This document shows positions 12,563 through 25,860 of a DNA stretch of 64,000 nt, piece by piece. The notes under the pieces are model-generated. The model saw only the letters and a list, made by a program, of their open reading frames with translations, ran no database searches and was not told the origin of the DNA. This DNA comes from Prochlorococcus marinus str. SB (GTDB taxonomy: Bacteria > Cyanobacteriota > Cyanobacteriia > PCC-6307 > Cyanobiaceae). A program made the position numbers and the translations under genes. The stretch's first letter is position 1. Each line of letters begins with the position of its first letter. Location of the stretch: NCBI RefSeq assembly GCF_000760115.1, contig NZ_JNAS01000001.1, positions 310,001 through 374,000 on the forward strand. Direction: 5' to 3'.

Positions 12563-13348
12563 TTAATTGCGAAGTTTAGGAATCAAAAGAGATGCAACGC
12601 AAATGACACTTATTGCAGGCCCAGGCGATAGATTAAAGACTAGGGAGAGAATAAAGCCCAGAAGTGAGATGCATAAACCAAAAAATGAAGACCTCATCAT
12701 TGCAATTCTTAAACTATGAGCCTTATTTAGGCCTAACAAAGTTGGGGTAGAGAGAAGAGCAATTACAAGAATTACTCCTACTGCTGACATTGAACTAACA
12801 ATTACTAATGCTGTTGTAAAACTAAGAGCAAGATTTAATAAAGAAACATTTATACCACTCGCAGATGCACCTTCTGGATCCAGTCCAACGTAAACAACCT
12901 TTTCATATCCAAAAGTTATCAAGATCATAAATACTAAAAATGCAATTATTGTCCTAAGTAAATCCCCAAAATTTGCTGTCAATAAATCGCCAAATAGTAC
13001 TGCTTCCAAATCAATCCTTATTCCGAGTAAAGGAATAATAAGTACTCCAAACCCAAGCATTCCAGCGAGAATAGTGTTCATAACTGCTTCATAATTTTCA
13101 CTTTTTCTATTAGTTAAACTTTCCGCAATTACAGAGCCTAAAAGACCACTTATAACACCACCAATTGAGGGGTGAACTCCAAGCGCTAATGCGAGAGCAA
13201 GTCCAGGCAACACACAATGAGAGATTAAATTAACTTGTAATAATCTTTTATGAGTAATTAATACAGTCCCCATTGCTGGACATAAGATCCCTGAAAAAAT
13301 TGTTATTATTAATGGAACAAGCCACCAGTTGTTATAAATAAAAGACAT
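12563..13348 (-). CDS. znuB: Zinc ABC transporter permease
   Basis: A 261-residue polytopic protein of the ABC-3 family, which imports zinc or manganese across the inner membrane. It has about seven to eight hydrophobic segments and the family landmarks GTVLITHKRLLQVNLISHCVLPGLALALALG and VVYVGLDPEGASASGINV (the F/L-D-P-E-x-A-x-x-x-G block). Identification as zinc-specific rests on context with znuC, a long His-rich ZnuA and a Fur-family regulator. It starts 17 bases from the divergent regulator gene, or 56 if zur starts at 13405. znuC lies upstream on the same strand with zur wedged between on the opposite strand. Confidence 0.85.
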   Translation of the reverse strand: MSFIYNNWWLVPLIITIFSGILCPAMGTVLITHKRLLQVNLISHCVLPGLALALALGVHPSIGGVISGLLGSVIAESLTNRKSENYEAVMNTILAGMLGFGVLIIPLLGIRIDLEAVLFGDLLTANFGDLLRTIIAFLVFMILITFGYEKVVYVGLDPEGASASGINVSLLNLALSFTTALVIVSSMSAVGVILVIALLSTPTLLGLNKAHSLRIAMMRSSFFGLCISLLGFILSLVFNLSPGPAISVICVASLLIPKLRN

Positions 13349-13365
13349 TATTCGAATGATTCGGT

Positions 13366-13800
13366 ATGATCAGAAATACGGGCCATAAAAAGATCTCGAA
13401 AACAATGGTAACTAAGTCTGACATTACCAAAAGACAAGAACAACTTCTTGAAGAACTGAATAATTGTGATGATGAATTGAGCGGACAAGAGTTGCATAGG
13501 CAGCTGATGATTAAAGGTAAATCTATGGGTTTGACAACTGTTTATAGAAATCTGCAAGTCTTGATAAAACATGGCTTAATTCGTTCTAGACATCTACCAA
13601 ATGGAGAAGTTCTCTATACTCCCGTTGATAGAGATATTCATCATTTGACCTGCGTTCAATGCGGAGAGACTTCGAAAATGGAAGGTTGTCCTGTTAAAGA
13701 TATTCATACGCCAAAAAAAAATTCCCAAAAGTTTCAACTTTTGTTTCATACACTCGAATATTTCGGACTTTGCCAAAACTGTTACCAAGCTCAAAATTAA
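13366..13800 (+). CDS. zur: Fur-family zinc uptake regulator
   Basis: A protein of up to 144 residues; the second Met (residue 14, base 13405) is an equally good start and matches usual Fur lengths. Residues 20-85 form the winged helix (ELHRQLMIKGKSMGLTTVYRNLQVLIKHGLI carries the Fur recognition helix). HHLTCVQCGE (C96, C99) and LCQNC (C136, C139) are the structural-zinc pairs of Fur/Zur. With zinc bound, such repressors block zinc import. Placement inside znuB-znuC and the Zur-type palindrome between znuC and znuA make Zur the best call over Fur or PerR. Confidence 0.85.
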   Translation: MIRNTGHKKISKTMVTKSDITKRQEQLLEELNNCDDELSGQELHRQLMIKGKSMGLTTVYRNLQVLIKHGLIRSRHLPNGEVLYTPVDRDIHHLTCVQCGETSKMEGCPVKDIHTPKKNSQKFQLLFHTLEYFGLCQNCYQAQN

Positions 13801-13826: not shown

Positions 13827-14582
13827 TTATTTATTGATAGAGCTTATATTTATTGCCTCTAATTTATCTTTTATTAAATCGGGACTACCAACTGCTAAAA
13901 CAGTTTTATCGAGAACTATTACTTGATCGTAATTATTTAGAGACTCTCCCCAATCATGGCTACTAACAACTAAAGAAAGACCTACATCCGCCAGTTGACG
14001 AACAATTTTTAGAAAATCCTCTTTTGCAGGTGGATCCAAAGCCGCGCAAGGTTCATCAAGAAGAAAGATTTTTGCAGGGGACATAAGAGTCTTTGCCAAT
14101 AGAGCTCTTTGCTGTTGACCTCCAGAAAGAGAATCAAGTCTTCTATTAGCTAAATTAGCGATACCGACCCTCTGCATTGTCGCCTCTAATTCGCAACATT
14201 TATTAATCCAAGCATTAGGATATGCGAGAAGAGTTTTGATTTGAAAAGGAGTATTACTTTTAGATTTTGAATACTTTATTTGCCCAAGAGATACCAATTT
14301 TTCTACTGTAATTGGAAACTTCCAATTCATGGAACTTCTTTGTGGCATAAGAGCGACTAGGGATCTAGATCTATGTAAATTCTCACCATCAATTTTTATT
14401 TCGCCTTTATCTGGAGCATTCTGTCCTTGCAATATCTTTAATAAAGTAGATTTCCCTGCGCCGTTTGGGCCAACTAACGCTGTTAGAGTTCCAGGTTTAA
14501 TCTCAATCGATACTTTATTTAAAGCTGGCTTACTTTTTTTTGTGTATGAATAGGTTAAATTTTCAGCAACTAAAGTAGCCAT
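13827..14582 (-). CDS. znuC: Zinc ABC transporter ATP-binding protein
   Basis: A 251-residue ATPase with Walker A GPNGAGKST (about residues 38-46), Q-loop in LMPQRSSMNW, signature LSGGQQQRALLAK, Walker B IFLLDEPCAALD and H-loop in VVSSHDW. The family drives metal import through ZnuB. The ATG at 14580-14582 is well placed. It is divergent from znuA and shares a 134-base intergenic region with one Zur-type palindrome, so both sides are probably repressed together. Its 3' end converges with zur; reading on would run antisense through zur into znuB. Confidence 0.85.
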   Translation of the reverse strand: MATLVAENLTYSYTKKSKPALNKVSIEIKPGTLTALVGPNGAGKSTLLKILQGQNAPDKGEIKIDGENLHRSRSLVALMPQRSSMNWKFPITVEKLVSLGQIKYSKSKSNTPFQIKTLLAYPNAWINKCCELEATMQRVGIANLANRRLDSLSGGQQQRALLAKTLMSPAKIFLLDEPCAALDPPAKEDFLKIVRQLADVGLSLVVSSHDWGESLNNYDQVIVLDKTVLAVGSPDLIKDKLEAINISSINK

Positions 14583-14678: not shown

Positions 14679-14699
14679 TGAAAATGATTATCATTTTGA
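14679..14699. promoter_or_regulatory. Zur-type operator between znuC and znuA
   Basis: AAAATGAT-T-ATCATTTT (14681-14697) is a perfect 8-1-8 palindrome that fits the cyanobacterial Zur-site pattern. It ends 20 bases before the znuA ATG and lies about 100 bases from the znuC start, well placed to control both divergent genes. Confidence 0.8.
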
Positions 14700-14716: not shown

Positions 14717-16558
14717 ATGTCTATTTTCCAAAAAGTTTTATTTAATAAAAAAGCTCCATCAAAGTCAATTATCAAAAACTCCTTAATCGCAGGATCCTTA
14801 ATATTTTCTGGTTTTGGGTATGAAGTATTGGCTAAAGGCAAATCATATATTGCAGTAGAACCACTAGTTTGTGATTTAGTTAAATCAATTGCACTACCCT
14901 CTGACAAAGTTACATGCTTAGTAGATAGAAAACAGGATGTTCATGACTTAAAGATCAATCCAAGGCAAGCTCAATTATTAAATAGCGCAGACAAAGTTTT
15001 CACTTTAGGTAAAGAAATGACTCCCACTATGAAAAACTGGGAAGATAAGTCAAATACTGTTGTGGTTGGTGTTAGTGCCATCGAAGTTGAGAATCCTTCT
15101 AGCGAAGAAGGAGGAGCTTTTGAATGGGCTGGCCTATTCGAACTTACAGCAGGAAATTATAAATGGTCATTTGCGAAGGTTGATGGTGAATATGCAGACC
15201 CCGCCATGAAAATGGTCATTCTTGAATCAGATGACATTGAATTATCTGAAGAATTAGCAGAAGAGCTATTGGGATCTGATCAAAATATTGAAAAAAGCAA
15301 TAATGGTATTCTTTCTGCAAGTGACAAAGCCTTCGTTTTAAATTTTGATCAAAAGAAAGATATCACGGAATTTAATGTAGAAATCAAAAAAGATGGTAAG
15401 TATGCTTTCTTTACAGAACATATGCCTTTTGAATTTGAAGCAGATGAACACTTCTTCAAAGATCTAGCTAAAAATGATATCGAACCAGTCGCTCAAGAAC
15501 CTGATATGGGAGGCCATAGTGAACATGGCACAGAAGGCTTTGAATGGGCAGGAACTTTTGATCTTAAGGAAGGATCATACAAATGGTCATTTGCAAAAGT
15601 CGATGGGGAATATGCAGATCCTGCTATGAAAATGGTTATCCTCAAATCTGGCGATATTGAAGAATCTGAAGAACTTGCAAAGGAACTTTTAGATTCCGAT
15701 GACTCTATCTACAAGGCTGATAATGATGTTTTATTAGCAAGTTCAAAAGCAATATCACTTAATTTTGATCAAGGTAAAGAAAGTACAGTATTTAATGTAG
15801 AAATTAAAAAAAGTGGTAAATATACATTCTTTACAGAACATATGCCTTTTGAATTTGAGGCAGATGAACACTTCTTTAAAGATGTATCCAACAATGATGT
15901 AGAGCCTATTGCGCAAGTTCCAGATGAGGGAGATGGGCATCACCACCATCATCATCATGGACATGGAAGTTTAGACCCTCATGTATGGCATGATCCAGCC
16001 AATATTATAAAAATGAGTAAAGTAATCTCAAAAAACTTAAAAAAGGATATCTCTATTTTTAACAGAAAAGATAGAAAATCCATAAATGAAAGAATTGATT
16101 CAACTGAATCTTTACTCAGTGGCCTAAATGAATGGATTCTTGACCAGGTAACAACAATACCTGAGCAAGACAGGGTGCTTGTCTCAAAACACAAAGCTAT
16201 GGATTATTATGGTGCTGCATTCGGATTTGAGACAGTTAGTTTACTAGACTTCCTTGGCGATTCATCAAGCTTAAGACCTGAAAACATTAGTTCAACTTTG
16301 AATATGCTAAAGGAAGAAAATGTTAAGGCAATATTTCCAGAACAAATACCAGCGTCTAAGTTATTAAAAAACTTAAGTAGGCAAAGTTCTGTACCTTTAG
16401 CTTCTAATCAAATATTTGTTGATGGTTTAATGATGAAAGGAAATACTATAAGCGTTGCAGTTCACAACACTTGTACTATTGTTGATTCATTAGGTGGAAG
16501 TTGTGATAAAGAATCTGGCTCCAGTCTTGAGTCTGAATGGTACAAACTTTCAGATTAA
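14717..16558 (+). CDS. znuA: Zinc ABC transporter substrate-binding protein with two inserted copies of a novel domain
   Basis: A 613-residue protein, about twice the normal ZnuA length. Residues 1-40 look like a signal or membrane anchor. Residues 43-130 and 420-600 are the two halves of a cluster A-I metal-binding protein; the likely zinc ligands are H76 (in QDVHDL), H422/H425 (in SLDPHVWHDP), H492 (in SKHKAMDYYG) and an acidic residue in FPEQIP. Between the halves are two tandem repeats (about residues 135-263 and 275-400), each starting FEWAG and ending near FFTEHMPFEFEADEHFF, then a run of seven His (408-414). The adjacent CobW protein carries a similar domain. Such His-rich loops buffer zinc in ZnuA. 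The protein should work with ZnuB and ZnuC in the periplasm. Confidence 0.85.
   Translation: MSIFQKVLFNKKAPSKSIIKNSLIAGSLIFSGFGYEVLAKGKSYIAVEPLVCDLVKSIALPSDKVTCLVDRKQDVHDLKINPRQAQLLNSADKVFTLGKEMTPTMKNWEDKSNTVVVGVSAIEVENPSSEEGGAFEWAGLFELTAGNYKWSFAKVDGEYADPAMKMVILESDDIELSEELAEELLGSDQNIEKSNNGILSASDKAFVLNFDQKKDITEFNVEIKKDGKYAFFTEHMPFEFEADEHFFKDLAKNDIEPVAQEPDMGGHSEHGTEGFEWAGTFDLKEGSYKWSFAKVDGEYADPAMKMVILKSGDIEESEELAKELLDSDDSIYKADNDVLLASSKAISLNFDQGKESTVFNVEIKKSGKYTFFTEHMPFEFEADEHFFKDVSNNDVEPIAQVPDEGDGHHHHHHHGHGSLDPHVWHDPANIIKMSKVISKNLKKDISIFNRKDRKSINERIDSTESLLSGLNEWILDQVTTIPEQDRVLVSKHKAMDYYGAAFGFETVSLLDFLGDSSSLRPENISSTLNMLKEENVKAIFPEQIPASKLLKNLSRQSSVPLASNQIFVDGLMMKGNTISVAVHNTCTIVDSLGGSCDKESGSSLESEWYKLSD
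15119..15940 (+). repeat. Tandem duplication inside znuA (two units of about 420 bases)
   Basis: Phe 135 and Phe 275 begin equivalent FEWAG blocks, a 140-residue period. The two units share SFAKVDGEYADPAMKMVI unchanged and nearly identical FFTEHMPFEFEADEHFF ends, while the middle parts have diverged (ESDDIELSEELAEELL against KSGDIEESEELAKELL). The duplication is in frame and both copies look intact. Confidence 0.85.
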
Positions 16559-16635
16559 ATTTTTCTAATAAAAACGGTTTTCATTTCTTATTATTACTAT
16601 TATTAGACTATTGTTTATTTAGTAAAAATCAGTAA

Positions 16636-17985
16636 ATGAGCATCAAAGATAAAGTTCCCGTAACCATCCTCACTGGATTTTTAGGCTCAGGGAAGACTAC
16701 TTTGCTTAATAGGATATTGAGTGAAGAGCACGGGAAAAGAATAGCCGTAATTGAAAATGAATACGGTGAAGTTGGTATAGATCAAGGACTCGTAATAAAT
16801 GCAGATGAAGAAGTTTTTGAGATGTCAAACGGGTGCATTTGTTGCACTGTTCGCGGTGATTTAATAAGAGTCCTTGGCAACCTTATGAAGAGAAGAGATA
16901 AGTTTGACTATGTCTTAGTAGAAACGACAGGATTAGCAGATCCAGGGCCAGTTGCTCAGACTTTTTTCATGGATGAAGAGATTAGTTCTGAATTTACTCT
17001 CGATGGAATTGTGACTTTAGTTGATGCTGCTCATATTGATCAGCAACTAGGAAGGAGTGATGAAAGTTCAGAACAAGTAGCATTTGCTGATGTTCTTGTC
17101 CTCAATAAAACTGATTTAGTCTCTGATGATGCACTAGATACTCTTGAATCAAGATTGAGAGATATGAATCGAATGACTCGAATTATTCGAGCCGAGAATG
17201 CCAAAGTGCCAATTGAAACAGTCTTAAATCTAAGTGCATTTGATCTTGATCAGATCCTTAAACGCAGGCCAACATTCCTTGAACCAGAATATCCTTTTGA
17301 ATGGACAGGTGTTTACAATCTTGATGCAGGTAAATATGAATTAATGCTGGAAGAAGGACCAGATCCAGAAATGTCCCTAGTAGCTCTTTTTAACCAAGGT
17401 GAGAGTGAGGAGGAACTTAAAGATGGTGCTGAATCCTCCGTAAGACTTTATGCAGAAAAAGCTAATACTTTAGAGCCTGGGAATACTATTCCATATGGAG
17501 ATCATATAAATCTCAAATTGGATGGTAAAGGAAATAAATCCTTCATCTTGAATATAGAAAAACCAACAAAAATAGGTTTATTTACACAACATACTGCTGA
17601 AGAATTCAATATGAAAGTCATTAAAAGTGACGAAAATAAAGAGGTTCCATTTAATACTGAAAGGTTCTGGCAAGCAGAGCATGAACATGATGATGAAGTT
17701 GGCTCAATTGCTATTGAGCGTTTTGGAGATGTTGACCCAGAAAAACTAAATACCTGGATGGGAAGGCTTCTCTCAGAAAAAGGAGTGGATATATTCAGAA
17801 CTAAAGGTTTCATAAGTTACTCGGGGAACCCAAGGAGAATAGTTTTCCAAGGAGTACACATGTTATTTACTGCTCAACCTGACAAAGAATGGGGTAATGA
17901 ACCTCGTAGAAATCAACTTGTTTTTATCGGTAGAAATCTAAATGAAAAAGAGATGCAAGAAGGCTTTGATAAATGCCTGATATAG
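16636..17985 (+). CDS. CobW/COG0523-family zinc-related GTPase with inserted FEW domain
   Basis: A 449-residue G3E GTPase. Walker A is GFLGSGKTT (14-22), the metal-binding C-x-C-C is CICC (67-70), then VETTGLADP and NKTD. Residues about 221-330 are an insert not found in ordinary CobW proteins: FEWTGVYNLDAGKYEL, DPEMSLVAL, IGLFTQHTAEEF, matching in order the repeats in the adjacent ZnuA. HEHDDEVGS (about 348) and the C-terminal CobW domain follow. COG0523 proteins insert or chaperone zinc, cobalt or other metals; beside znuA a zinc chaperone is likely. It lies 77 bases after znuA and overlaps the WD40 gene by 13 bases. Confidence 0.85.
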   Translation: MSIKDKVPVTILTGFLGSGKTTLLNRILSEEHGKRIAVIENEYGEVGIDQGLVINADEEVFEMSNGCICCTVRGDLIRVLGNLMKRRDKFDYVLVETTGLADPGPVAQTFFMDEEISSEFTLDGIVTLVDAAHIDQQLGRSDESSEQVAFADVLVLNKTDLVSDDALDTLESRLRDMNRMTRIIRAENAKVPIETVLNLSAFDLDQILKRRPTFLEPEYPFEWTGVYNLDAGKYELMLEEGPDPEMSLVALFNQGESEEELKDGAESSVRLYAEKANTLEPGNTIPYGDHINLKLDGKGNKSFILNIEKPTKIGLFTQHTAEEFNMKVIKSDENKEVPFNTERFWQAEHEHDDEVGSIAIERFGDVDPEKLNTWMGRLLSEKGVDIFRTKGFISYSGNPRRIVFQGVHMLFTAQPDKEWGNEPRRNQLVFIGRNLNEKEMQEGFDKCLI

Positions 17986-19046
17986 AACCATTTAGCCCAA
18001 GAGGCATGTTCCATGAAGGATGGACAGCTGAAGTTAACGATTATGCCATAGCATGTGGTTGGGCTCTTAAAGGTAAACAATTTATTGTTGGTGACGTGGC
18101 AGGAGGTATTTTTGCATTCGAAGGAGATACTGGAAAAATTATTTGGGAAAAAGAAAATACACACTCTGGTGGTCTACTAGCAATGGCCATTCATCCAGAG
18201 GGTGAAATTTTTGCAACATCAGGTCAGGATGGAAATGTTCAAATTTGCAATTGCCATGAAGGTAAAGTTATTAAAACACTTTATCTCGGCAAAGGTTGGG
18301 TAGAACACCTCAAGTGGTCTAATGACGGTTTATTTCTAGCGATAGCTTCCTCAAAAAAAGTATATGTTTTTAATGAAATTGGTGAAGAGAAATGGATCTC
18401 AGAAGACCATCCAAGCACAGTAAGTGCAATAACATGGTCAAATAAAAATGAGCTGGCAACTGCTTGCTATGGAAGAGTGACATTCTTTGACATAGTTAAT
18501 AATAAAACGAATCAAAAACTTGAATGGCAAGGATCATTGGTATCTATGGAATTAAGTCCTGATGGAGATATAGTTGCCTGCGGTAGTCAAGACAATTCAG
18601 TTCATTTTTGGAGAAGATCAACAGGAATGGATGCTGAAATGACGGGGTATCCTGGGAAACCAAGTCACCTTTCTTTTGATGACAGTGGAAAATTACTAGC
18701 AACTAGTGGCAGCGAAAGAATTACTGTATGGAGTTTTTTAGGGAATGGTCCAGAGGGGACTATGCCAGGAGAGCTATGTCACCATACAGAACCCATTTCG
18801 AGTCTTGCCTTCTCAAATAAAGGTATGCTTGTAGCCTCAGGATCTAGAGATGGTTCTGTTGTCGCAAGTTTTCTAAAAAAAGACGGCAATGGAGACCCTG
18901 TTGGGGCTGCATTCGCGGGAGATTTAGTAGGGGCAATATCCTGGAGACCTGACGATTGTGCACTTGCAGCAGTTAATGCAAAAGGTGTTGTAAATGTATG
19001 GAAATTTAAAGTTCGTTCAAACCTTTTTTCTAAAGGGTTTAAGTAA
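17973..19046 (+). CDS. WD40-repeat protein linked to the zinc locus
   Basis: A 357-residue protein made of about seven WD40-type repeats; typical motifs are LLAMAIHPEGEIFATSGQDGNVQI, VSMELSPDGDIVACGSQDNSVHFW and ISSLAFSNKGMLVASGSRDGSVV. It should form a beta propeller, a platform for protein contacts, with no signal peptide. The start overlaps the CobW gene by 13 bases in a different frame, which implies translational coupling and joint function. The role with CobW (for example binding a zinc client protein) is inference. The Met at 17973 is the only start that preserves the first blade (MFHEGWTAEVNDYAIACGW). Confidence 0.85.
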   Translation: MPDIEPFSPRGMFHEGWTAEVNDYAIACGWALKGKQFIVGDVAGGIFAFEGDTGKIIWEKENTHSGGLLAMAIHPEGEIFATSGQDGNVQICNCHEGKVIKTLYLGKGWVEHLKWSNDGLFLAIASSKKVYVFNEIGEEKWISEDHPSTVSAITWSNKNELATACYGRVTFFDIVNNKTNQKLEWQGSLVSMELSPDGDIVACGSQDNSVHFWRRSTGMDAEMTGYPGKPSHLSFDDSGKLLATSGSERITVWSFLGNGPEGTMPGELCHHTEPISSLAFSNKGMLVASGSRDGSVVASFLKKDGNGDPVGAAFAGDLVGAISWRPDDCALAAVNAKGVVNVWKFKVRSNLFSKGFK

Positions 19047-20093: not shown

Positions 20094-20117
20094 TGAAAAT
20101 GATAATCATTTTTATCA
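20094..20117. promoter_or_regulatory. Zur-type operator 1 upstream of cynA
   Basis: AAAATGAT-A-ATCATTTT (20096-20112) is a perfect 8-1-8 palindrome, flanked by TGA on the left and TATCA on the right. Its centre is 43 bases from the next site, about four helical turns, so two dimers would sit on the same face of the DNA. Confidence 0.75.
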
Positions 20118-20138: not shown

Positions 20139-20157
20139 AAAATGATAATCATTTTTA
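20139..20157. promoter_or_regulatory. Zur-type operator 2 upstream of cynA
   Basis: A second perfect AAAATGAT-A-ATCATTTT (20139-20155), 179 bases before the cynA ATG and 30 bases upstream of the 21-base element that also occurs at the Cys-rich gene. Confidence 0.75.
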
Positions 20158-20333: not shown

Positions 20334-22019
20334 ATGATTATTCCAGCTAGTAATTTCACTCAAAAATATAACTTCGAATGTAAGACTTCAGATCAAATTT
20401 CAGAGAATAATCCCTCAAGTAATAAAACATTTCTTAAAAATAACTTTTTAAATCCATCAAACGATCATGGTTACTTCTGTGCATGCATAGAATGTAAGCC
20501 AATAGGAAATGATCATGAAAATTTTATGGCTGACATGCCAGATGACCCTGCTGAAATAATTTCAGATTTTTCTAGGATGGGGCTCATCAAAAATGAAGCT
20601 TATGAAATTGCTGATGCTATTTCAACTGCAGAAATGAGAGATCTTTTATTTTATAAAAATGCTTCTAATGGTGACCCTTATAAAGAGCAATTGCTTAGAG
20701 AATTAGCTAAAGAAGCTGGTGGATTAGATCAAGCCTTTCAAGCAGCATTTGGACCTCAAGCAGGTAAGTTCTTCGCTAAAACAAAAGCCTCTTCGCCAAT
20801 GGGTAGAAGACAATTTTTATCTAGCTTGGCTGCAGGTGCAGCACTAATTACAGTTGCTTGTTCCAACCAAAATAAACCTGCTAAACAACCAATTGATGAT
20901 ACCCCTATCAATGTAAATAATTTAGAGAAACAAACCTTAAGAGTTGGTTTCATACCTATAACTTGTGCTTCTCCCATCATTATGGCCGAACCAATGGGTT
21001 TCTATAACAAGTTTGGTATGGATGTAAAAGTTGTCAAAATGCCAAGTTGGGGAGCAGTAAGGGATTCAGCAATTGCTGGTGAATTAGATGCTTACCATAT
21101 GCTAGCTCCAATGCCAATTTCCATGACACTTGGATTGGGAACTGCACCATTTAGTGTAAAACTAGCAAGCATTGAAAATATAAATGGACAAGCTATTACT
21201 GTTGCTAACCGTCATAAAGGAAAAGTTAATGGTCCTGCTGACATGAAAGGATTCGTTTTTGGGGTTCCATTCCCATATTCAATGCATAATCTTTTATTAA
21301 GATATTATCTAGCCAAAGGTGGAGTTGATCCAGATAAAGACGTTCAGATTCGTCCTGTTCCACCACCAGATAGTATTGCACAGTTAGTTGCTGGAGATAT
21401 TGACGCATACTTAATGCCTGATCCGTTTAATCAAAGGGCGGTTTACGAAGATGCAGGTTTTATACATCTTCTTACTAAAGAATTATGGCCAGGGCATCCA
21501 TGTTGTGCTTTTGCAGCAGGGGAACCATGGATAAAAGAACATCCTGAAACTTTCAGAGCTCTAAATAAATCTATTATTGATGCTGCCGCTTATGTCTCAA
21601 CTCCTTCTAATAGAAAAGAAGTTGCAAAAGCTATTTCTGGAAGAGGATTTTTAAACCAACCTACAGAAGTAGTTGAAGCTGTTCTTACAGGCAAATTTGA
21701 TGATGGATTAGGTAAAAAACAAAATGTCCCCGACAGAATTGACTTTAAGCCTTATCCTTGGCAAAGTTTCTCTCATTGGATCCAATCTCAATTAATTCGT
21801 TGGGATTTAGGAGGCGCAGTTGCTGCAATTCAAGCAGGCGATTTTAATCCTAATAGTGCTTCAATATTTTTGACTGACGAAGCTCAAGCTTTAGAAAGAG
21901 AAATGGGGGGCAATCCACCAACTGCGAGATTTAGAAAAGAAATCTTAGCTTATGATGAATTTGATCCAAGTAACCCAATGCAATACATTAAAGATCAAAT
22001 TAAAAGGGACGGTTTTTAA
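20334..22019 (+). CDS. cynA: Cyanate ABC transporter substrate-binding lipoprotein with long N-terminal extension
   Basis: A 561-residue NrtA/CmpA/CynA-family protein. Residues 200-560 are the binding domain (LRVGFIPITCASPIIMAEPMGFYNKFG is the typical start). A Tat signal begins only at residue 156 (GRRQFLSSLAAGAALITVAC) with a lipoprotein-type Cys at 176. Residues 1-155 are extra: an N-terminal Cys cluster (C49, C51, C54 in YFCACIEC) and an acidic helical region. The frame is fully open and reads as protein, so the upstream ATG seems real, but translation from M156 would give a normal protein. Cyanate is inferred from cynS downstream. It has an NtcA site and two Zur-type sites upstream. Confidence 0.8.
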   Translation: MIIPASNFTQKYNFECKTSDQISENNPSSNKTFLKNNFLNPSNDHGYFCACIECKPIGNDHENFMADMPDDPAEIISDFSRMGLIKNEAYEIADAISTAEMRDLLFYKNASNGDPYKEQLLRELAKEAGGLDQAFQAAFGPQAGKFFAKTKASSPMGRRQFLSSLAAGAALITVACSNQNKPAKQPIDDTPINVNNLEKQTLRVGFIPITCASPIIMAEPMGFYNKFGMDVKVVKMPSWGAVRDSAIAGELDAYHMLAPMPISMTLGLGTAPFSVKLASIENINGQAITVANRHKGKVNGPADMKGFVFGVPFPYSMHNLLLRYYLAKGGVDPDKDVQIRPVPPPDSIAQLVAGDIDAYLMPDPFNQRAVYEDAGFIHLLTKELWPGHPCCAFAAGEPWIKEHPETFRALNKSIIDAAAYVSTPSNRKEVAKAISGRGFLNQPTEVVEAVLTGKFDDGLGKKQNVPDRIDFKPYPWQSFSHWIQSQLIRWDLGGAVAAIQAGDFNPNSASIFLTDEAQALEREMGGNPPTARFRKEILAYDEFDPSNPMQYIKDQIKRDGF

Positions 22020-23788: not shown

Positions 23789-24232
23789 ATGACTTTACCC
23801 TCATTTACACAAATACTATTAAAAGCAAAAAAAGAAAAAAAATTATCCTTTGAAGATTTAGGTAAATTGATTAATAGAGATGAAGTATGGGTTGCAAGCT
23901 TATTTTATGGGCAAGCTACAGCTTCTGAAGGAGAAGCTAATATTTTAATTAATACTCTTGATTTGCAATCAGAACTAGAAGATCAATTAACAACACCGCC
24001 AGTAAAAGGCTGCCTAGATCCTGTTATTCCTACAGATCCTCTTATTTACAGATTCTATGAAATAATGCAAGTATACGGGCTGCCAATGAAGGATGTAATA
24101 CAAGAGAAATTTGGTGATGGAATTATGAGTGCAATTGACTTTTCAATCGAAGTCGATAAGGTTGAAGACCCAAAAGGGGATAGGGTTTTAGTAAAAATGT
24201 GTGGTAAATTCTTGCCCTATAAAAAGTGGTAG
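23789..24232 (+). CDS. cynS: Cyanate hydratase (cyanase)
   Basis: A 147-residue enzyme. The catalytic residues are all present: R88 and E91 in [12 protein letters not shown] and S114 in [10 protein letters not shown], with exactly the spacing of R96, E99 and S122 in the E. coli enzyme. It converts cyanate and bicarbonate to ammonia and carbon dioxide, as a decamer in the cytoplasm, giving nitrogen and protecting against cyanate. Last gene of the cynABDS operon; convergent with tatA 39 bases away. The length is close to the E. coli protein (156). Confidence 0.92.
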
Positions 24233-24968: not shown

Positions 24969-24985
24969 ATAATGATAATCATTTT
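24969..24985. promoter_or_regulatory. Zur-type operator upstream of the Cys-rich peptide gene
   Basis: TAATGAT-A-ATCATTT with CA beyond keeps the core AATGATAATCATT palindrome and differs from the cynA sites at one outer base. It lies 100 bases upstream of the ATG at 25085, with the shared 21-base element between. Confidence 0.7.
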
Positions 24986-25842: not shown

Positions 25843-25860
25843 TCAATGATAATCATTTAA
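25843..25860. promoter_or_regulatory. Zur-type operator upstream of the DUF1348 gene
   Basis: AATGAT-A-ATCATT (25845-25857) is a perfect palindrome with the same core as the znuA and cynA sites, placed 47 bases upstream of the DUF1348 start on the minus strand and downstream of the 25898-26119 gene. Confidence 0.7.

Follow-up and report, generated by a model that had tools for sequence, protein, structure and literature searches.

A folded domain shared by ZnuA zinc receptors and COG0523 GTPases and placed at His-rich metal loops

Introduction

Accessory zinc domains on ZnuA-type receptors are already known, as with ZinT in AdcA. ZinT lies at the C-terminus of AdcA or is a free protein, and we know of no ZinT in a cytosolic GTPase. 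Here we describe a domain of ~108 residues that occurs twice inside the His-rich loop of a ZnuA receptor and once in the adjacent COG0523/CobW-type GTPase of Prochlorococcus marinus str. SB. Both genes lie in a 64,000-nucleotide stretch (NCBI RefSeq assembly GCF_000760115.1, contig NZ_JNAS01000001.1, positions 310,001 to 374,000, forward strand), hereafter the window, whose first letter is position 1 of the coordinates given below. New here is a domain placed inside the His loop and common to ZnuA, a cytosolic GTPase and a putative permease; we found no description of it in the literature searched, though earlier work outside that literature may mention the ZnuA insert.

The domain resembles the AdcA/ZinT arrangement in being an accessory folded domain that would work with a ZnuA-like zinc receptor, but its two ZnuA copies (Z1 and Z2) sit inside the receptor's loop, whereas ZinT is C-terminal or free. 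It is not ZinT itself, as a Pfam-A scan of the whole ZnuA returned no ZinT model at E ≤ 1. ZinT is fused in AdcA (a ZnuA-ZinT fusion) and separate in ZinT/ZnuA, and helps the zinc receptor capture zinc (PMC6689063). The His-rich loop of cluster A-I zinc receptors is thought to raise the available zinc near the cleft (PMC8786288) and takes part in zinc transfer from partners such as ZinT (PMC6689063). The ZnuA of the window has the PF01297 core and the His-rich loop between the receptor halves by which cluster A-I is recognized, and the domain occupies the same slot in the same protein, though as a folded unit rather than a His repeat; picocyanobacterial and haloarchaeal ZnuA have the His repeat, the domain or both. 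AztD, a periplasmic zinc carrier, likewise cooperates with the loop of a receptor of the ZnuA type, but it is a separate protein that resembles beta-propeller enzymes and WD40 proteins rather than an inserted jelly roll (PMC6689063).

On the GTPase side, the COG0523 proteins linked to WD40 and znuABC genes form subfamily 5, and Zur sites lie upstream of some of them (Haas et al., PMC2770081). The window's CobW fits this subfamily by its WD40 and znuABC gene order. Like its members, it has the GTPase part, the GCICC motif and CobW_C and stands beside znuABC and a WD40 gene, but it carries an insert ahead of its HEHDD motif that goes without mention in the available part of the subfamily description (PMC2770081). 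ZepA, a Zur-linked cyanobacterial zinc protein of two domains with a beta-sandwich part and no archaeal homologs, shares the Zur link and the beta-sandwich part with our domain and differs in its two-domain build and its H-X2-9-H-F/Y-H site (PMC10957091). That zinc motif occurs in 0 of 215 distinct copies of our domain, and we rejected identity with ZepA. The diatom protein ZCRP-B was also set aside, being NikA-like (PMC9010474), and the available part of a paper on haloarchaeal ZnuA mentions no such domain (PMC8155600).

The way in which zinc receptors and COG0523 GTPases gather metal with their His-rich loops and pass it on is difficult to study, in part because such loops are disordered. 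A compact, well-folded domain with a fixed candidate site, swapping places with His repeats, offers a tractable handle. Its profile also flags likely metal-handling proteins among hypotheticals, such as haloarchaeal lipoprotein-like proteins and an Alicyclobacillus membrane protein, and it bears on how Prochlorococcus acquires zinc from very poor water.

ZnuA and CobW of the window share one homologous domain

The znuA gene (14717..16558, + strand) encodes a zinc ATP-binding cassette (ABC) transporter substrate-binding protein of 613 amino acids (aa), to which PF01297 matches with 139.7 bits against a cut-off of 29, in two stretches of which the best is residues 384-589 (Pfam scan). Its His-rich loop is enlarged by the two domain copies, Z1 (15119..15505, +) and Z2 (15539..15925, +), each made up of a core (15119-15442 and 15539-15862) and a tail, and a HHHHHHHGHG tract (15938..15967, +) follows 3′ of Z2 within the metal loop. 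The cobW gene (16636..17985, +; 449 aa) matches PF02492 with 206.9 bits and PF07683 with 86.1 bits, has GCICC as its GCxCC motif as well as CobW_C, and bears the third copy, C, between the GTPase part and CobW_C (17296..17628, +). Its HEHDD motif (17680..17694, +) lies 3′ of the insert, at a place where domain-less relatives have HxHD, only a short way past their GTPase part. Judged by eye, ZnuA looks exported from its N-terminus and CobW looks cytosolic.

A preliminary description of this DNA, made from the sequence alone, had proposed that these three segments are copies of one unnamed domain, each at a His/Asp-rich metal region, and comparison of the segments bears this out. The motif FEW stands at ZnuA residues 135 and 275 and at CobW residue 221, and F-T-(E/Q)-H at 232, 372 and 316; Z2 is followed by HHHHHHHGHG and the CobW copy by HEHDD. 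Z1 and Z2 are 74% identical (E 1e-69), while the CobW copy is ~30% identical to the ZnuA copies. Even so, one-against-one BLASTP between ZnuA and the CobW copy, with SEG masking on, gave E-values of 6e-8 (Z2) and 2e-4 (Z1). Smith-Waterman scores of the CobW segment (88 with Z1, 100 with Z2) lay 10.1 and 13.5 standard deviations above 2000 shuffles of that segment, the top shuffles reaching 59 and 55. Since the masked BLASTP and the shuffle scores both hold, the likeness does not come from low-complexity sequence, one of the doubts raised about it beforehand. Profiles of the ZnuA copies (A5) and the CobW copies (A6), built apart, aligned end to end in hhalign over 102 columns (E 6.1e-14), and profile-profile comparison among the separately built ZnuA, CobW and haloarchaeal groups gave 6.1e-14, 6.2e-15 and 2.5e-25. 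That the likeness is chance or low complexity, for which one might cite the pairwise identity of just ~30%, can be regarded as refuted by these values together with the shared strand order described below.

Within its own genome, a search with one copy found exactly three places at E ≤ 4e-5 (Z1, Z2 and CobW), with a fourth at chance level (E 0.54); the four other PF02492 matches of that genome did not surface in this single-copy search. The ZnuA copies differ from the CobW copy in an extra tail of ~20 residues (to 15505 and 15925).

The domain also lacks a family name, as had been supposed: neither the whole proteins nor 19 single members gave a credible Pfam-A or NCBIfam match over it, and a sequence search of the PDB returned nothing below E 0.45. 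Thus no named non-metal family emerged in Pfam-A, NCBIfam or PDB sequences. The Pfam model CBM_35 touched ZnuA at residues 202-235 only, below its curated cut-off (E 0.015; 16 bits against 28), and matched 1 of the 19 single members (E 0.088). We took as chance NF005913 (best E 2.4e-4; 3 of 19 members at E ≤ 0.1), as well as the STOP2 zinc finger, FAP42, CSF-1 and other weak single-member names from Pfam and NCBIfam. By sequence, the shared segment is one homologous domain without a family name in Pfam-A or NCBIfam.

The domain is predicted to be a jelly-roll-like sandwich with an invariant polar set

The AlphaFold2 model of Z2 (predicted local distance difference test, pLDDT, 88.6) is a jelly-roll-like beta sandwich, with strands at 3-9, 12-19 and 29-36, a helix at 40-52, and strands at 56-59, 71-75, 82-89 and 93-99. 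In the model of CobW, the insert has strands at 223-229, 232-238 and 245-252, a helix at 258-272, and strands at 277-279, 290-294, 301-307 and 311-317. Its block is predicted at pLDDT 84-95 and repeats the strand and helix order of Z2, so the possibility that the segments fold differently was not borne out for Z2 and the CobW copy. Since CobW rows entered the alignment behind the Z2 model (A2), that model does not give evidence separate from the homology; the alignment behind the CobW model (A4) consisted of CobW rows only. Outside the insert the full CobW model is poor (mean pLDDT 70.9, predicted template modelling score 0.45), for which a shallow alignment is probably to blame; its best structural match is YjiA (Z 25.8, root-mean-square deviation, rmsd, 4.1, 287 residues aligned).

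Foldseek found no match of the domain model in the PDB at E ≤ 0.001. The best Z in VIA-align was 4.3, shared by four rows with rmsd 3.3-3.9 over 86-92 aligned residues, and the CBM35 structures 2w1w and 2vzp reached Z 3.7-3.8 (rmsd 3.3-3.6, 80-83 aligned), a level at which many unrelated jelly rolls score alike. Matches to haemagglutinin, Eph receptor and capsid structures were dismissed as common jelly-roll arrangements.

Six residues, E2, G12, D27, H101, E105 and F106 in the numbering of the ZnuA copy, are identical in 215/215 distinct full-length copies from cyanobacteria, proteobacteria, Bacillota and haloarchaea, a set that excludes 22 partial copies cut by locus ends. The CobW equivalents of the last four are D23, H99, E103 and F104. 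Four of the six (Glu, Asp, His, Glu) can bind metal, and they define a candidate site at E136, D161, H235 and E239 in Z1, at E276, D301, H375 and E379 in Z2, and at E222, D243, H319 and E323 in the CobW copy. In the Z2 model, E2 opens strand 1, D27 lies just ahead of strand 3, and H101 and E105 come just past the strand at 93-99; given a jelly roll with adjacent first and last strands, we infer that E2, D27, H101 and E105 would come together at the same end of the sandwich.

The domain occurs in four kinds of host

Across 386 sampled cyanobacterial genomes (profile A3), the domain was found in 30; earlier and narrower scans had placed it in 22 of 291 genomes (profile A1) and 29 of 60 relatives. 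All 30 positive genomes have it in CobW, and 21, all of the window's family, have a further match, in ZnuA wherever this was read. The 9 CobW-only genomes comprise five of the window's family, two of these in its genus, and four elsewhere in the phylum. The closest matches, 95-99% identical, are in Prochlorococcus among the best 80 of 370 relatives obtained by a genome contig scan (79 Prochlorococcus and one Synechococcaceae).

Several features of picocyanobacterial znuA genes came to light alongside. Long domain-bearing ZnuA genes are common in Prochlorococcus, unlike ZnuA cluster CK_2462, which a review reports to be almost absent from that genus (PMC8786288); the two may be clustered separately. 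Some genomes carry two znuA-like genes (L210/L211 in G338, L212/L213 in G439, L214/L215 in G447, and G462), one of a domain-bearing and one of a domain-less length, of which L210 and L214 proved domain-less on reading. In genome G221 (L017/L194), an apparent ZnuA frame of 873 codons consists of two near-identical halves around a run of N, possibly an effect of assembly or masking.

Beyond the cyanobacteria, where the sample consisted of plasmids, 11 of 72,556 records were positive, with the domain in ZnuA (four), His-rich lipoprotein-like proteins (three), CobW (three, one of them broken) and a putative permease (one). The haloarchaeal hosts are four zinc or metal ABC receptors and three small proteins with His-rich ends and, by eye, a lipoprotein-like start. 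The intact proteobacterial CobW hosts are from Paraburkholderia and Pantoea, with a WD40 gene next in both. The third, in Pantoea soli (L123:5001-5333), appears interrupted, with short frames and an internal stop, and lies near zigA and a 6-carboxytetrahydropterin synthase gene. An Alicyclobacillus membrane protein (L115) completes the set, in a cluster that holds a metal-sensitive repressor gene. Rescanning the 11 records added one place, in a second ZnuA locus, itself broken, at the record end of a Haloarcula halophila plasmid (L273), with the same upstream genes as L118. Phage records gave no match to the CobW copy.

Two further observations concern the haloarchaeal loci. In L116, the gap between the genes for ZnuA and the ABC ATPase holds one for a 73-aa DUF7511 protein (L116:6038-6259); annotated genes of similar size occupy this place in L118, L122 and L261-L263. 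One stand-alone lipoprotein-like protein (L124:4872-5423), mostly domain plus His-rich ends, lies directly downstream of a urease cluster and is a candidate for a nickel-related protein from this position. Urease as a neighbour and the metal-sensitive repressor genes suggest that metals other than zinc are handled in some hosts.

Among distinct domain-bearing CobW with downstream room, 100 of 101 have a WD40 gene next (110/111 by open reading frame, ORF, string), and CobW follows ZnuA in 84 of 87 cases by distinct domain sequence (125/131 by ORF string). The WD40 link is independent of the domain, because 20 of the 24 domain-less CobW loci read keep the WD40 gene.

A maximum-likelihood tree of 51 representative copies, from a short alignment with some long branches (as the program warned), has a branch (support 94/92) that separates all CobW copies from those of ZnuA, haloarchaea and Alicyclobacillus; within the latter, Prochlorococcus-type ZnuA copies group with haloarchaeal copies (98/89). 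A tree that unites the ZnuA copies with the picocyanobacterial CobW copies was rejected by the approximately unbiased test (p 0.0078). Derivation of the ZnuA copies from the neighbouring CobW is thus disfavoured, though given the long branches not finally. The domains of the window's ZnuA and CobW likely met by separate routes, one through an exported and the other through a cytosolic lineage.

The domain sits in or at the edge of His-rich metal loops and partly exchanges with His repeats

Picocyanobacterial ZnuA loops were counted as distinct loops between fixed anchors, which gave 7, 63 and 23 loops with no, one and two domain copies (9/67/24 when shortened copies of the same gene are included). 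His/Asp repeats make up the seven domain-less loops, which contain 14-25 His each. Ahead of the domain, one-copy loops contain 4-20 His (median 14), and behind it 5-7. In two-copy loops, by contrast, no His precedes the first copy (0 in 23/23), with 3-6 between the copies and 7-9 after. As two-copy loops have no His before the first copy, the extra domain would occupy the former place of the N-side His repeat.

The same place is His/Asp/Glu-rich and lacks the domain in the haloarchaeal ZnuA relatives L261-L263, whereas it bears the domain in L116, L118, L122 and L125. A search with L116 retrieved all three relatives, with L261 matching at 65% in two pieces and both L262 and L263 matching at 62-63% in the C-terminal third.

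At the position where the Alicyclobacillus protein L115 has the domain, an unannotated ORF for a membrane protein on an Acidithiobacillus plasmid (L230) has a (HP)n-HDHDHH loop, with both flanks aligning; relative to L230, L115 also lacks a hydrophobic stretch there. Both genes lie near a gene of the PF02583 metal-sensitive repressor family. L115 matches no Pfam or NCBIfam family. L230 reaches PRK10019 (nickel/cobalt efflux) at E 3.9e-5, with 23 bits against 195 and over a span that includes the His repeat, perhaps by composition, and Pfam Zip and Mntp more weakly (E 0.006-0.008). Given no family match and a relative below the PRK10019 cut-off, naming L115 an RcnA-type nickel/cobalt exporter is not supported, and we call it only a putative permease.

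In CobW, the insert of ~110-120 aa lies ahead of HEHDD. None of the 24 domain-less cyanobacterial CobW loci read has the domain (0/24); in these, HxHD, which reads HEHDD in several, comes just a few residues past PxFL and marks the insertion point. In the four host types compared with domain-less relatives (picocyanobacterial ZnuA, haloarchaeal ZnuA, the L115 protein and CobW), the slot is at a His-rich metal loop or its edge.

A metal-handling element is the favoured explanation

We propose that the domain is a mobile, independently folding beta sandwich serving as a structured metal-handling element of His-rich loops, an explanation we think probable, with ample room for doubt. It builds on what is observed of homology, fold order, insertion sites, invariance, His-repeat exchange and zinc-locus context; beyond this, the four residues would have to meet in space and bind metal, and the metal to be passed on. 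The domain, inserted in or against the His/Asp-rich segment by which importers, the putative permease and COG0523 GTPases collect their ion, would bind Zn(II), or Ni/Co in some hosts, at the invariant Glu/Asp/His/Glu (positions 2, 27, 101 and 105 of the ZnuA copy). The domain would then hold the ion, or pass it between the His loop and the principal metal site of the host. For ZnuA, this would mean better capture and a higher local concentration of scarce periplasmic zinc, with the domain taking on part of the poly-His repeat's job; for CobW, it would mean that the ion is loaded or released at the GTPase's HEHDD end. The invariant set, the loop position and the exchangeability with His repeats together argue for such a further metal-holding station. 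In its widest form, the proposal describes an ancient mobile metal-transfer domain of archaea and bacteria, a folded counterpart of poly-His loops slotted independently into receptors, a permease, lipoproteins and GTPases, with picocyanobacteria of the zinc-poor ocean tuning ZnuA copy number (0, 1 or 2) against His-repeat length; to this extension we would give slightly less than an even chance.

Several points weigh against metal handling. Three carboxylates and one His are unusual for a high-affinity zinc site and fit a structural network or a Ca/Mn site, and jelly rolls like this one are widespread, serving elsewhere to bind sugars or proteins. The broken Pantoea soli CobW copy, outside the 215-copy set, reads FGW and so lacks E2. 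CobW keeps its HxHD with and without the domain, so that no exchange is seen there, though 1 of 24 domain-less loci (L260) has a longer His run. In one-copy ZnuA the His repeats persist beside the domain, which makes the replacement incomplete. Because the ZnuA slot counts were taken from picocyanobacteria related to one another, they do not count as independent events; the independent part is the four host types compared. They also draw on 91 of 136 distinct domain-bearing ZnuA ORF strings, those with both anchors, and leave out 45 without, among them three X-run ORFs (L017, L028 and L194; genome G221). One of the four host types, L115, is a putative metal permease whose naming from sequence is weak. 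Two of the three lipoprotein-like loci (L117 and L121) have no evident metal gene nearby.

Some of these points suit a folded spacer or scaffold that binds no metal, stiffening and displaying the His-rich loop while the invariant polar residues hold the fold. Such a part would explain why the domain adjoins His-rich or HxHD segments in the hosts read, why in CobW it adds to HxHD and leaves the motif unchanged, and why the PDB sequence search, Foldseek and VIA-align found no solved metal-binding relative. In our judgement, though, Glu, Asp, His and Glu in 215/215 copies across archaea and bacteria would hardly be expected of a spacer, and the N-side His repeats are gone from two-copy ZnuA as if metal binding, not spacing, had been replaced. 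We therefore consider a spacer unlikely, if worth keeping in mind. A jelly roll of the carbohydrate-binding-module type, for cell-wall sugars or organic metal complexes, would account for the weak structural matches to such modules, Flo adhesins and the GOLD domain (best VIA-align Z 4.3) and for the weak CBM_35 match (E 0.015). All of these fall below threshold, as is typical of a common arrangement, and cytosolic CobW has no cell wall within reach; sugar binding seems very improbable.

A docking module for partners such as ZnuB, an outer-membrane donor, the WD40 protein or client enzymes, with an indirect link to metal, draws on the WD40 gene beside CobW and on the zinc carriers ZinT and AztD, which interact with such receptors and their loops (PMC6689063). 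Yet the hosts sit in different compartments with different partners, the same znuB and znuC genes stand beside ZnuA with 0, 1 or 2 copies, and the conserved set resembles metal ligands; domain-less CobW, moreover, keeps its WD40 neighbour. One soluble partner for both hosts is excluded if, as it looks, ZnuA is exported and CobW cytosolic, and docking to one shared partner is made unlikely by the differing compartments and by a WD40 pairing that does not need the domain. Docking in any form strikes us as improbable. The preliminary description had gone further and suggested that one docked partner might link zinc import to delivery. This is not supported: the ZnuA copies group with those of haloarchaeal ZnuA and lipoprotein-like proteins rather than with those of the neighbouring CobW, and either host can carry the domain without the other, as in the CobW-only genomes (9/30 of the domain-bearing cyanobacteria) and in haloarchaeal L118 and L122, where ZnuA has the domain and nearby GTP-binding proteins gave no match. 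A structured metal-handling element remains the explanation we prefer.

Gene order and a candidate Zur box

The zinc locus of the window runs znuB (−), a Fur-family regulator (+), znuC (−), znuA (+), cobW (+) and WD40 (+). The znuB gene (12563..13348, −) encodes an ABC permease and znuC (13827..14582, −) an ABC ATPase, both ORFs named by eye and position. The regulator (13366..13800, +; PF01475 FUR, 69.2 bits) is probably Zur, a name that follows from position and context. The WD40 beta-propeller gene (17973..19046, +), recognized by Pfam, overlaps cobW.

Between znuC and znuA, at 14682..14696, lies the palindrome AAATGATTATCATTT, a candidate Zur box. Its exact core stands upstream of 88 of the 124 znuA-class ORFs read, and among the 36 without it, five of six inspected show the core with 1-2 altered bases. 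Zur represses a Synechococcus gene cluster that comprises znuA, znuC and two neighbours without a known function (Mikhaylina et al., PMC9337993). The window holds 11 matches to the palindrome of znuA (≤2 mismatches, both strands counted), where 2.7 are expected and 100 shuffles reached a maximum of 7. Because similar palindromes recur elsewhere in the window, the one at znuA could also be a Fur-type site.

Further such palindromes lie at 20097-20111, 20140-20154, 24970-24984 and 25844-25858. Two of them precede an ABC substrate-binding gene (20334-22019), which suggests control of the Fur/Zur type there. The receptor it encodes has an extension of ~150 residues ahead of a Tat-like RR motif (MGRRQFLSS, by eye), and 3′ of the gene come others that by eye encode a permease, an ATPase and, at 23789-24232, a cyanase-like protein.

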